Assembly: GCA_963169745.1 (NCBI GenBank) | Contig: CAUJCU010000010.1 | Coordinates: forward strand, 62,001 to 126,000 | Source: Bacteroidota bacterium | GTDB taxonomy: Bacteria; Bacteroidota; Bacteroidia; UBA4408 | Direction of reading: 5' to 3' | Length of the DNA: 64,000 nt | Shown: one piece after another, positions 32,546-37,652 of the stretch | Layout of the letters: each line of letters opens with the position of its first letter | Numbering within the stretch: the first letter of the stretch is position 1 | Position numbers and translations under genes: made by a program | The notes under the pieces: generated by a model | Databases searched by the model: none | What the model was told of the DNA's origin: nothing | Seen by the model: the letters and a program-made list of their open reading frames with translations, nothing else

Positions 32546-33823
<1,278 letters not shown>

Positions 33824-35587
33824 TTGTCTTTTCAATTAATATCTTGTAGTTACTTTTTAAACTTCTTACGGCTTCAAAGCTGTTTGAACAGGCGTAAAAT
33901 TTCTATTACAAATAGGGTTAACCGTATCAGGCTTATATTTCCTCTTTTACTTGTGCTGTTTTTAAAAACTCCTTTGCACGCACAAAAAGTAAGTAAAATA
34001 GAAATTGTGAATGCCGACTCATTTGAGTTTGACGAAGACTTGGGGAATGGTGCAAAAAGACTTTTAGGTCATGTCCAATTTAAGCAAGATAATATTTTAA
34101 TGTATGCTGATAGTGCCTATTATTATGATAATAATGCCCTTGATGCCTTTGGAAATATTCATATAAACCAAGGAGATAGCATTCATTTAAATGGCGACAA
34201 TTTGAAATATAATGGCAATACGAAAATAGCTTTGGTTAACGGAAAAACAGTTACCCTTAAAGACAAGGATATGACCCTAACAACTACTCAGCTTGATTTT
34301 AATATGCAAAGTAACATTGGATATTATACTCAAAAAGGGAAAATTGTTACCCGTGAAAACACACTTACAAGCCAGTTTGGTTATTATTACAGTAATCAGA
34401 AAAACCTCTATTTTAAAAAAGATGTTGTTTTGTTAAATCAAGACTATAAAATGTACTGCGATACGTTACGTTACCATACACCAACCGAAACAGCCTTTTT
34501 TCAAGGACCTACACATATAATAGGGGAGAGCAACCGAATATATTGCGAAAATGGTTGGTATAACACAAAAACAGATAAAGCACAGTTTAATAAAAATGCC
34601 TGGCTCAAAAATAAAGACCAAAAACTAAGAGGCGATAGTTTATATTATGATCAAAAAAATGGTTATGGAAAAGCTATGAAAAATGTTGAAATACTAGATA
34701 GTGCTCAAAAAGTAAGCATCCAAGGACATTTGCTGGAATATTTTGAACAGGCTGAAAAATCAATAGTTACCAATAGGGCGGTTATGATACAATATTTTAA
34801 AGAAGACACCCTTTTTTTACATGCCGATACGCTTAAAGCAAGTTACGACAGTACTTATTTTGCCTTAAAAAAAATAAAGGAAAATGAAGAGTTGAACAAA
34901 AATAAAAACAAAAAGGACTATAAGCCCAATGTGCAAATGGAAGACTCTGTGGGTAGTGCACACCGAATGATATATGCTTACCATAAGGTAAAGTTTTACA
35001 AAAAAGATTTTCAAGGTTTATGCGACTCCTTGGTTTATTGCTCAAGTGATTCATTAATGAATTTATATACCACACCCATACTGTGGAATGAGGCAAACCA
35101 GCTTACGGCTGAGTTTGTAAATGTTAAACTTTTTGATGGAAAAATTATGCAACTCAATTTGATGAATAATGCCTTTATTGTTTCTCAATATGATAGCCTA
35201 AGATTCAATCAAATAAAGGGAAAAACAATGACCGGTTTTTTTCTGGAAAATGAATTGCGAAAAATTGATATTTACGGCAACGGAGAAACTATCTATTATA
35301 TTAAAGAAGATGCAGATAGCTCATTGGTTGGTGTAAACAAAGCCGAATGTAGCGATATGTCTGTTTATATCCACGACAGTAAGGTCGAGAAAATTAAAAT
35401 GTATAAAAAACCATCAGGAACAATGAAACCACCTAATGAGGTAAACCCGGCCGATATGAAACTTAAAGATTTTAACTGGTTTTCTATATACCGCCCTATA
35501 AGTCACGAAGATATATTTAATTGGCGTGATTTACCTTCAGAAAATATAAAGCAAAGGAAAAAAACTGCTGCTTCAAAAAAACAGTAA
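33824..35587 (+). CDS. OstA-like protein of LPS transport (LptA/LptD N-domain related)
   Basis: 587 residues with a hydrophobic signal segment (about 37-52, ending LHAQ) and then repeated OstA-like beta-jellyroll strands: RLLGHVQFKQDNILMYADSA, DAFGNIHINQGDSIHLNG, GYYTQKGKIVTRENTLTS and FFQGPTHIIGESNRIYCENG. Proteins of this type bridge LPS across the periplasm in Bacteroidota. The TTG at 33824 is the only plausible start, directly after the purA stop; the N-terminal 36 residues before the signal segment are unusually long. Convergent with the anti-sigma gene, 5 bases apart. Confidence 0.85.
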   Translation: MSFQLISCSYFLNFLRLQSCLNRRKISITNRVNRIRLIFPLLLVLFLKTPLHAQKVSKIEIVNADSFEFDEDLGNGAKRLLGHVQFKQDNILMYADSAYYYDNNALDAFGNIHINQGDSIHLNGDNLKYNGNTKIALVNGKTVTLKDKDMTLTTTQLDFNMQSNIGYYTQKGKIVTRENTLTSQFGYYYSNQKNLYFKKDVVLLNQDYKMYCDTLRYHTPTETAFFQGPTHIIGESNRIYCENGWYNTKTDKAQFNKNAWLKNKDQKLRGDSLYYDQKNGYGKAMKNVEILDSAQKVSIQGHLLEYFEQAEKSIVTNRAVMIQYFKEDTLFLHADTLKASYDSTYFALKKIKENEELNKNKNKKDYKPNVQMEDSVGSAHRMIYAYHKVKFYKKDFQGLCDSLVYCSSDSLMNLYTTPILWNEANQLTAEFVNVKLFDGKIMQLNLMNNAFIVSQYDSLRFNQIKGKTMTGFFLENELRKIDIYGNGETIYYIKEDADSSLVGVNKAECSDMSVYIHDSKVEKIKMYKKPSGTMKPPNEVNPADMKLKDFNWFSIYRPISHEDIFNWRDLPSENIKQRKKTAASKKQ

Positions 35588-35592
35588 CTATT

Positions 35593-36684
35593 TTATTTCC
35601 CGTTATTATAAACTTTAATGTTTACAATATAGTCTTTTAAAATTTTAATTTGGTTTACCCGACTAAGTCCTATTAAGTTATTTTTTTTGTTAAGCTTAAA
35701 GCCAACATGAAGTGAATCAATAGCTAAGCTATCTATTACAGATACAATATTTTGAGACTTAATGGCAAACGCAGTCCCTTCGGTTTCCGTTAATTTACCA
35801 CTGATTAACCCAATAATGTTGCCACTGCCGTCTATTAAAGGCCCGCCACTGTTTCCTGGATTTACTGGAATAGATATTTGATAAGAAATTGTATCACCTT
35901 CGTAACCCGAAGAAGCGCTAAGAGCTCCATCGCCATAAACAATATCTTCGCGAGGATAACCTAAAGTAAATACCTGCTCACCCAAATTGCCACTTTTTTC
36001 AGAAAAACTGTAAGGGAGCGAGCTATATGAAACAAACTCAGGCGATACCACTTTAAGAATTGCAATGTCTGATTGTACATCTCTAAAAACAGTTACTGCT
36101 TTGTAATTTTGAATGTGTTTGTTCTGGATAAATACCGAATCAGCACCTTTAATCAAATGCAAACTAGTAATAAAATAACCGTCTCGTGATATTGCAAACC
36201 CAGTACCACTATAGTTAGCCACAGGTACATCTGCTTTCTTTGCCGAGTTTATATTGTTAATTAAGGCATTTTGAGAACGTTTTATTTTGTCAATGTCGCG
36301 CTTTAATACTTTGAAGTTTGTACTTTGCCTTACTTGTTCTTTCTGAAAATTTAAATACATAATACTTGACAAAGCTACCAATAACGAAACCGATGCGGCT
36401 ACTGCCATAACCTTATAATGTTGCAACCAAAAAACTTTTAATTGGTGCGGCTTTTTATAGCTATTGTCACCAATTGTTTCCTGATGAATTTTTTCTAATT
36501 TTTGCTTTAGTTTGACTCTTTTTCCATATAAGAAAAGTGATTCTTTAATTTTCTTATACTCCAAAAACACTTGTAACATTTCAGGGTCTGTTTGTAATCT
36601 AATTTCAAACAAAGCAACATCTTGTTCCGATAGTTTCCCATCAAGATATAATTCAATTTCTTCTAAATCTTTACTCGTTTTCAT
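35593..36684 (-). CDS. Anti-sigma factor fused to a trypsin-like serine protease domain
   Basis: 363 residues in three parts. Residues 1-70 are a helical, cysteine-free anti-sigma-like domain (DLEEIELYLDGKLSEQD, LFEIRLQTDPEML). One membrane helix follows (about 92-112). Residues ~155-325 form a trypsin/HtrA-type protease with a full triad: H176 (TSLHLI), D206 (QSDIAIL) and S279 (NPGNSGGPL). No PDZ domain is seen. The ATGA overlap with the upstream ECF sigma gene marks them as a pair. A signal in the periplasm may thus be sensed or processed by the protease half and passed on to the sigma-binding half; mechanism is inference. Confidence 0.85.
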   Translation of the reverse strand: MKTSKDLEEIELYLDGKLSEQDVALFEIRLQTDPEMLQVFLEYKKIKESLFLYGKRVKLKQKLEKIHQETIGDNSYKKPHQLKVFWLQHYKVMAVAASVSLLVALSSIMYLNFQKEQVRQSTNFKVLKRDIDKIKRSQNALINNINSAKKADVPVANYSGTGFAISRDGYFITSLHLIKGADSVFIQNKHIQNYKAVTVFRDVQSDIAILKVVSPEFVSYSSLPYSFSEKSGNLGEQVFTLGYPREDIVYGDGALSASSGYEGDTISYQISIPVNPGNSGGPLIDGSGNIIGLISGKLTETEGTAFAIKSQNIVSVIDSLAIDSLHVGFKLNKKNNLIGLSRVNQIKILKDYIVNIKVYNNGK

Positions 36685-37268
36685 ATTTTTAATTTCTCCT
36701 CATGTTTAAAGAAAAGCTTTTTTAAGCGCATCAAACATTTATACTTTTGTGTTTTGGCATTATCTGCATTAGTGTATCCAAACTTTTCAGAAATTTCAAC
36801 CATATTGAGTTGATGGATGTAAAAGTCCTCAATTATTGTTTTACAGGGTTCTCCCAATTCTTGGAGTACATGAGTCATTTTAGTATAAAGTAATTCTTTT
36901 TCCTCGATTGCCTCCGATTCATTTTCAGTAAGCACAACATACTCAGAAAAATCGGCAATACCATTAACCATGGTGCTGTTCTTTTTTATTTTTTTTAGCC
37001 ACATGAGGCGGCTTACTGAGTATAAATAGGTTTTAATTTTGCATTGAAGATCAAAATTTTGATCCATAATGTTTTGGTAAAACACAATTACAGCTTCTTG
37101 AAATATATCTTTGGCATCATCAGCATTACCGTTGTTGCTCATTACAAAATGACTAACCGAACCAAAATACAATTTATAAAGAACGTTGAGTACACTGTCA
37201 TCATTATTGCGCAAGGCACTAATAATTTGCTCATCAGACAGGTTTATTTCCTTCTTTTCAGGGTACAC
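36681..37268 (-). CDS. ECF-type RNA polymerase sigma factor
   Basis: 195 residues. Region 2 is visible as SVLNVLYKLYFGSVSHFV and ADDAKDIFQEAVIVFYQNI; region 4 is a helix-turn-helix with NMVEISEKFGYTNADNAKTQ. GTG start, with an in-frame stop two codons upstream. It overlaps the anti-sigma/protease gene by 4 bases and is read divergently from the small lipoprotein. A TACCTTTG box and a 13-base inverted repeat lie 20-66 bases upstream, suggesting regulated or autoregulated expression. Confidence 0.9.
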   Translation of the reverse strand: MYPEKKEINLSDEQIISALRNNDDSVLNVLYKLYFGSVSHFVMSNNGNADDAKDIFQEAVIVFYQNIMDQNFDLQCKIKTYLYSVSRLMWLKKIKKNSTMVNGIADFSEYVVLTENESEAIEEKELLYTKMTHVLQELGEPCKTIIEDFYIHQLNMVEISEKFGYTNADNAKTQKYKCLMRLKKLFFKHEEKLKI

Positions 37269-37287
37269 TCTTTATACTTTTAATGCC

Positions 37288-37295
37288 CAAAGGTA
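37288..37295 (-). promoter_or_regulatory. Candidate -7 box (TACCTTTG) of the sigma factor gene
   Basis: TACCTTTG on the minus strand fits TAnnTTTG and ends 19 bases before the GTG. It overlaps one arm of the inverted repeat at 37289-37334, so anything binding the repeat would cover it. No TTG at -33. Confidence 0.4.
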
Positions 37296-37334
37296 ACCCA
37301 AATAAAAAAAATATTCAGGTATTGGGTTACCTTT
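37289..37334. repeat. 13-bp perfect inverted repeat between sigma factor and lipoprotein genes
   Basis: AAAGGTAACCCAA at 37289-37301 and its exact reverse complement at 37322-37334, with a 20-base AT-rich spacer. On the plus strand the second arm runs into a T-rich tract to 37344, so an RNA hairpin with terminator or attenuator character is possible. Each arm also contains GGTAAC, comparable to the -35 elements of ECF sigma factors. Role undetermined: operator, divergent promoters or attenuator. Confidence 0.7.
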
Positions 37335-37388
37335 TCTTTTTTTTAAGATTAAGGGTATAATTATTATTAACCAAATAAACTAAAAAAA

Positions 37389-37598
37389 ATGAAAAATTTA
37401 TTTAAATTCGTTTTTGCTGCTTTTACAGTAGCAATGTTAGCAACTGCTTGTGGTGGTGCTAAAACTGAAGAAGCTGCAACTGAAGCTGCTCCTGCTACAG
37501 AAGAAACTACAACTGAAGCTGCTCCTGTAACTGAAGAAGCTGCTGCACCGGTTGCTGATACAACTGCTGCTGCTGCAACTCCAGAAGCTGCTCATTAA
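37389..37598 (+). CDS. Small Ala/Glu/Thr-rich lipoprotein
   Basis: 69 residues. A signal peptide ending in the lipobox-like LATAC (Cys21) is followed by ~48 residues made almost only of Ala, Glu, Thr, Pro and Val in repeated forms (EEAATEAAPATEETTTEAAP). The mature part is probably an unfolded acidic, surface- or periplasm-exposed chain. Similar short proteins exist in Bacteroidota, function unknown to me. Divergent from the ECF sigma gene, with a strong terminator behind it, so it is a single-gene unit and a possible target of that sigma factor. Confidence 0.75.
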   Translation: MKNLFKFVFAAFTVAMLATACGGAKTEEAATEAAPATEETTTEAAPVTEEAAAPVADTTAAAATPEAAH

Positions 37599-37618: not shown

Positions 37619-37652
37619 AAAGCCCTTTTTTTAAAAAAAAGGGCTTTTTTTT
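37619..37652. terminator. Bidirectional intrinsic terminator
   Basis: AAGCCC plus seven T pairs with seven A plus GGGCTT, followed by a T-run on the plus strand and, on the other strand, an equivalent run. It ends the small lipoprotein transcript and touches the stop of the minus-strand glycosyltransferase. Confidence 0.85.

Follow-up and report, generated by a model that had tools for sequence, protein, structure and literature searches.

Can an anti-sigma factor carry the protease that starts its own destruction? Anti-sigma factors normally receive their first periplasmic cut from a second protein, a protease such as DegS. The locus described here, from a Bacteroidota bacterium, encodes an ECF sigma factor followed by a single chain in which a cytoplasmic helical domain and a membrane helix are joined to a protease. 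It lies on the minus strand at positions 35593-37268 of the window, that is, the whole stretch of 64,000 nucleotides that was analysed. On the evidence set out below, we assign a probability of roughly 0.55 to the reading that the pair forms an autoregulated envelope-stress switch whose anti-sigma factor has a built-in site-1 protease.

The upstream gene (36681..37268, minus strand, GTG start) encodes a protein of 195 aa that matches both Pfam Sigma70_r2 (E 1.7e-5) and NCBIfam sigma70-ECF (TIGR02937, E 8.8e-16) above their cut-offs. It is an ECF sigma-70 factor that has regions 2 and 4, lacks region 3 and falls within the ~160-200 aa of this group, and its region 4 carries the signature TNADNAKTQKYKC. 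The protein aligns at 35-63% identity with 35 other sigma factors encoded upstream of such fusions, and the model of a homologous sigma factor gave fold matches to AlgU, sigmaE and SigW. An ATGA overlap joins the end of this ORF to the start of the fusion ORF (35593..36684, minus strand, ATG start, 363 aa), for which 112 homologues of the same architecture were collected. The initial annotation had described the overlap, a helical N-terminal domain, one membrane helix and a trypsin/HtrA domain with H176, D206 and S279, and every one of these elements proved exact. The genes adjoining the locus at 32549-35587 are purA and an OstA-like gene.

The fusion protein consists of an N-terminal helical domain, a single membrane helix and a PDZ-less HtrA/DegS-like protease, in that order. 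In an AlphaFold2 model built from 39 homologues (mean pLDDT 86), residues 1-72 (36469..36684, minus strand) form a cytoplasmic domain, probably the sigma-binding one, with helices 4-14, 20-32 and 34-72 at pLDDT ~86-97. A continuous helix spanning residues 80-146 includes the membrane segment (residues 92-112; 36349..36411, minus strand), and the confidence of the model is lower from residue 111 on. The periplasmic helical stalk (residues 114-150; 36235..36345, minus strand), delimited by the model and by conservation, is the candidate site-1 region. Residues 154-323 (35716..36225, minus strand) adopt the trypsin fold. Trypsin_2 matches residues 160-293 (E 5.5e-20), and the protein also matches the TIGR02037/DegS profiles. 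The closest solved fold is DegS-deltaPDZ (Foldseek, E 1e-12), and VIA-align points to HtrA1/DegS with a Z of about 20. The catalytic residues H176 (36157-36159), D206 (36067-36069) and S279 (35848-35850) are encoded on the minus strand. By its fold, its His-Asp-Ser triad and its GNSGG motif, the domain belongs to the HtrA/S1C proteases. It differs from the DegS/DegP type, which has at least one PDZ domain after the protease: the profile search found no PDZ match in the fusion protein, and only ~40 residues, predicted as a helix and a strand, extend beyond the protease domain.

These residues form a conserved C-terminal tail in the position of the PDZ domain (residues 325-363; 35596..35712, minus strand), with a helix at 342-352 and a strand at 353-359 (pLDDT 95-97). 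Its residue R342 is kept in 110 of 112 homologues. Secreted Bacteroidota proteases of the same clade (loci L036-L040 and L157) share the protease domain and the tail and have no anti-sigma part, and none of the loci read has a sigma gene next to the protease gene. The tail thus belongs to the protease clade rather than to sigma control. By eye, these relatives have a secreted-type N-terminus and differ in their N-terminal domains. In one of them (genome G055, locus L040, 429-5933), the protease gene also adjoins purA, with an OstA-like gene near, and this neighbourhood, common to G055 and the window, is perhaps a trace of shared ancestry.

The distribution of the pair was analysed in two samples. 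Scanning one genome per species yielded 545 stretches that encode relatives; the best 80 of the 545 were fetched, and the remainder may include protease-only relatives. In an even draw of 395 Bacteroidota genomes, 29 had a long fusion match, 27 of them near full length and 2 beginning at about profile position 36, and others had the protease part only. The fusion is present in Sphingobacteriaceae, Chitinophagaceae, Hymenobacteraceae and relatives; named carriers are Pontibacter, Hymenobacter, Rufibacter, Adhaeribacter, Pedobacter, Mucilaginibacter, Olivibacter, Solitalea, Pelobium, Chitinophaga and Rhodocytophaga. No full-length copy was found in plasmid records. A sigma gene of the same family stands immediately 5' of the fusion gene in all 111 distinct loci with upstream sequence, which answers the check on this point that the initial annotation had proposed. 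Since the remaining neighbour genes vary from genus to genus, this order is not a matter of chance. The annotation had also staked its proposal on conservation of the catalytic triad, and His176, Asp206 and Ser279, together with Gly277 and Gly280, are unchanged in 112/112 distinct homologues, which indicates strong constraint on the protease. In a protease tree, four incomplete rows aside, all fused forms lie together to one side of a branch supported at 96/94; the tree is compatible with a single origin of the fusion and does not prove it. Judged from these comparisons, the sigma factor and the fusion are an old and widespread pair. Two genomes of one family encode a fusion that lacks the first ~36 residues of the N-terminal domain, with the sigma gene, the promoter and the lipoprotein gene described below retained, a finding that counts against the proposed switch.

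We then considered whether the N-terminal domain is likely to bind the sigma factor. Relatives of the sigma factor were searched in 60 genomes picked for showing no fusion match, and the gene following each fetched match was read. A profile of the N-terminal domain matched 19 of 28 proteins encoded after related sigma factors, mostly in genomes without the fusion, with E values down to 2.5e-15. The same profile had no other match among 684 reading frames or 980 ORFs neighbouring fusion genes. By eye, most of the matched partners have one membrane helix followed by TPR-like or other outer parts, and some have no large outer domain. The occurrence of the domain on such varied proteins suggests a module that accompanies this group of sigma factors and is combined with interchangeable outer parts, a pattern known from anti-sigma families. 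The profile also picks out a broader Bacteroidota family of ECF partners (loci L161-L190), apparently still unnamed, which was not found as a family in Pfam.

Comparison with named families gave weak signals. The N-terminal domains of homologues matched the anti-sigma family NF052375 in 11 of 36 cases at E<=1 (best 3.9e-4) and zf-HC2 in 7 of 36 (best 8.5e-4). The window's own domain matched neither of these nor any Pfam family, which counts against an anti-sigma reading, and it cannot be assigned to the ZAS type by the motif HxxxCxxC, as residues 1-92 contain no cysteine. The sigma factor, the gap and the N-terminal domain were also modelled as one chain, drawn from loci with both genes in one frame, with the stop codon read as glycine, a linker of ~28 residues and 30 paired rows. 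The read-through model reached a mean pLDDT of 85 and a pTM of 0.72 despite the disordered linker, suggesting that the two parts pack together; the pTM does not say where. Foldseek matched the model best to sigma chains from solved sigma/anti-sigma complexes, with AlgU-MucA ranking first.

Two properties of anti-sigma factors in general are found here, namely direct co-encoding with an ECF sigma factor over a wide distance (111/111) and a cytoplasmic domain homologous to those of other sigma-linked membrane proteins (19/28). Given the module found after related sigma factors, the weak matches to anti-sigma families and the pTM of 0.72, residues 1-72 are probably the anti-sigma domain. Of what had been claimed at the outset, the coupling to the sigma gene stands directly, and the anti-sigma role is well supported, though indirectly, by evidence of these three kinds. 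Alternatively, the N-terminal domain might be no inhibitor, and the fusion a membrane protease that is simply co-transcribed with the sigma factor and one of its targets. The lack of a Pfam match for the window's own domain would fit such an arrangement, as would mutual information with APC between sigma and fusion columns, an uninformative comparison in which the N-terminal domain scores no higher than other parts (111 pairs, ~57 effective). However, a plain target gene needs no such domain, and the alternative accounts poorly for the same domain following related sigma factors on very different proteins, for the repeated though weak anti-sigma matches and for the sigma/N-domain model. We regard it as very improbable.

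How might the sigma factor be released? Ala96 and Ala97 are the sole fully invariant residues of the membrane segment (112/112 homologues). They are preceded at position 95 by V, A, I, L or M in all homologues, so that residues 95-97 of the window's protein read VAA. The window's genome encodes one S2P homologue and ClpX. In RsgI anti-sigma factors, an xAA in the membrane helix becomes, after the RseP cut, the end that is read by ClpXP (PMC12203970). The invariant Ala-Ala, together with S2P and ClpX in the genome, suggests by analogy that the fusion is likely a substrate of regulated intramembrane proteolysis. For the preceding cut, self-cutting is our first choice, because the stalk bears a DegS-like domain and because Brevibacillus HtrAw, once supplied with substrate, cleaves itself from its membrane anchor in trans (PMC5359297). 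No particular cut site could be assigned, and conservation of the stalk is moderate (L127, R129 and Q138); both points count against self-cutting.

The same observations leave room for a fusion that is an anti-sigma factor but whose protease is an effector or a sensor, with release brought about by another site-1 protease or by a change of shape on engaging damaged proteins. The fusion would then report the load on periplasmic quality control. An invariant triad is expected of any working protease, and the window's genome encodes other HtrA-type proteases that could make the first cut. Moreover, the secreted members of the clade, which have no anti-sigma part, indicate that the activity is useful apart from the sigma factor, and partners that have the N-terminal domain and no protease must be released in some other way. 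Against these points, an effector role leaves the fixed linkage of protease and stalk across the sampled families unexplained, and HtrA proteins are known to shed their own membrane anchor in trans (PMC5359297). On balance, we consider the effector role possible, if unlikely, and prefer self-cutting as the first step.

The outputs of the sigma factor were approached through conserved promoter elements. Upstream of the sigma gene, GGGTTAC occurs in 112 of 114 loci (expected ~1.7) and GTATTAA in 100 of 114 (expected ~7); of 105 sites, 85 have a spacer of N15 between the two and 17 a spacer of N16. The element sits ~30-90 bases 5' of the approximate sigma start. In the window, the probable sigma-dependent promoter of the operon is GGGTTAC-N15-GTATAAA (37271..37299, minus strand). 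A second, oppositely facing GGGTTAC is found in 98 of 114 loci, and in the window it belongs to what is probably a divergent promoter of this kind, GGGTTAC-N15-AGATTAA (37324..37352, plus strand). Given its position before the sigma factor's own gene and its conservation with the pair, we infer that GGGTTAC-N15-GTATTAA is read by this sigma factor. In 65 of 99 loci, only 0-4 nt (2-3 nt in 58) separate the end of the sigma promoter's -10-like element from the first in-frame start codon, and in the remaining loci the distance is 10-17 nt; the corresponding region of the window is 37266-37299. Possibly the sigma gene is transcribed as a leaderless mRNA; alternatively, its true start may lie further downstream than the GTG.

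Two facing copies of GGGTTACCTTT make up a perfect inverted repeat at about 37289-37336, and on the plus strand the second copy is followed by a T run that is kept in close relatives. By its sequence, this repeat could also form a hairpin or a terminator within the leader of the lipoprotein gene. An interpretation of the repeat as a plain operator or terminator was disfavoured, because -35-like and -10-like parts are conserved in both directions, as expected of two promoters.

The exact promoter pattern was found at 62 sites over 25 genomes, compared with 3 in the reversed control. In the window's genome, the strict pattern GGTTACCTTTN{9,14}TATWAAG gave one site, the sigma promoter itself. Further sites sought there with a looser pattern were discarded (3 matches versus 9 in the reversed control), and apart from the two at the locus no site is conspicuous. 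Many of the 62 sites are likewise at the locus itself, some of them before tandem lipoprotein copies. Among the distant sites, ~7 precede another such lipoprotein and ~5, mostly in one family, precede a small protein. Five loci of that family (f35, probably Chitinophagaceae) encode small proteins, most of them 96 aa long, with the motif 17-29 nt in front of their genes, and the one tested matches AMPK1_CBM (E 1e-7). As far as the motif reveals it, the regulon appears to be narrow and to consist largely of small lipoproteins.

The divergent promoter precedes a gene for a small lipoprotein of 69 aa with the lipobox ...LATAC (37389..37598, plus strand), a probable sigma target in a conserved divergent position, followed by a terminator-like hairpin (37619..37647, plus strand). 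A divergent small lipoprotein is encoded in 101 of 107 loci, versus 3 of 106 at a control position downstream of the fusion gene. After the lipobox, the window's lipoprotein is rich in Ala, Glu and Thr and has no aromatic residues. Across loci, the mature parts abound in Ala, Thr, Ser, Glu, Asp and Val, with aromatics almost absent, a composition that makes disorder probable. The best NCBIfam match for 4 of 4 lipoproteins tested was the PG1828-family lipoprotein NF050142 (E 1e-6 to 2e-8), at scores of 29-35 bits, under the 50-bit cut-off, so that they are not assigned to that family. The divergent gene, the two-way promoter and the C-terminal helix and strand had gone unmentioned in the initial annotation, and the first two indicate what the switch probably controls.

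The lipoprotein might also act back on the switch as a signal or brake, bound or cut by the protease, in which case faulty lipoprotein transport or a low lipoprotein level would set it. Such a role would be compatible with the autoregulated switch. The high frequency of the divergent gene relative to the control position speaks for it, and a narrow regulon made up largely of such lipoproteins is what feedback circuits show. Since the mature parts are of low complexity and poorly conserved, and the gene is missing from some loci, we rate this role as rather doubtful.

Taken together, the preferred reading, a self-cutting anti-sigma factor, would operate as follows. The N-terminal domain of the fusion would hold the sigma factor at the inner membrane, as the mobile module and the synteny suggest. 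A periplasmic signal would activate the PDZ-less DegS-like protease, which would cut its own stalk or that of a neighbouring copy. S2P would then cut the membrane helix and expose the invariant xAA end, and ClpXP would degrade the N-terminal domain and release the sigma factor. The released sigma factor would transcribe the operon that encodes it, the divergent lipoprotein gene and, in other genomes, a few more lipoprotein copies. In a fuller form of this scheme, held tentatively and at somewhat less than even odds, the one chain would be sensor, site-1 protease and anti-sigma factor at once in several Bacteroidota families, and its cue would possibly be the state of the lipoproteins made under the sigma factor, closing a feedback loop.

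No description of an HtrA/anti-sigma fusion was found in the literature searched; a prior mention is possible in the 2021 ECF re-classification, which lies outside that search. Proteolysis of anti-sigma factors is a textbook scheme in which protease and substrate are apart, and the fusion would be a natural one-chain version of it, in which cis or trans cutting, the signal and the threshold could be studied without a second protein. The N-terminal domain offers a candidate anti-sigma domain for the Bacteroidota, a phylum where most ECF sigma factors have no recognised partner (PMC7406223). Finally, the promoter motif makes the regulon readable from sequence, and the small-lipoprotein output is directly testable.

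Among known systems, E. coli sigmaE-RseA-DegS-RseP and P. aeruginosa AlgU-MucA-AlgW resemble the locus in having an ECF sigma factor, a single-pass anti-sigma factor and an HtrA-type site-1 protease, the latter two roles being predicted here. The likeness to the E. coli system extends to a protease fold nearest to DegS, a candidate xAA site and the presence of S2P and ClpX. In both systems, however, protease and anti-sigma factor are separate proteins. DegS and AlgW sense OMP ends through their PDZ domains, whereas the fusion has no PDZ domain and a conserved C-terminal tail, and the sigmaE regulon is a broad envelope set, in contrast to the few small lipoproteins that appear to be linked to the fusion. 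Class I (ASDI) and zinc (ZAS) anti-sigma factors share with it a short helical N-terminal domain, one membrane helix, a swapped outer domain and a gene adjoining that of an ECF sigma factor. Unlike them, the fusion has an N-terminal domain without zinc ligands and with marginal profile matches. A recognised ASDI neighbour has been reported for only 6% of Bacteroidetes ECFs (PMC7406223), and by sequence the N-terminal domain is a candidate for part of this missing set. Brevibacillus HtrAw is likewise a membrane-anchored HtrA domain, one that sheds its own N-terminal anchor in trans (PMC5359297), but it has a PDZ domain and involves no sigma factor. In RsgI of Clostridium thermocellum and Bacillus, the anti-sigma chain supplies its own first cut, as proposed for the fusion, and carries an xAA in its membrane helix; RsgI9 even has a protease-like outer domain, reported to bind polysaccharide (PMC12203970). 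The RsgI cut, however, is an autocleavage of a small, non-enzyme periplasmic domain where the fusion has an HtrA enzyme, and RsgI pairs with SigI rather than with an ECF sigma factor. The fusion shows no profile match or sequence relation to the RsgI family, to which it is thus not assigned. We infer that the fusion works most like sigmaE-RseA-DegS, except that a single chain combines protease and substrate, and also like RsgI, whose chain makes its own first cut.
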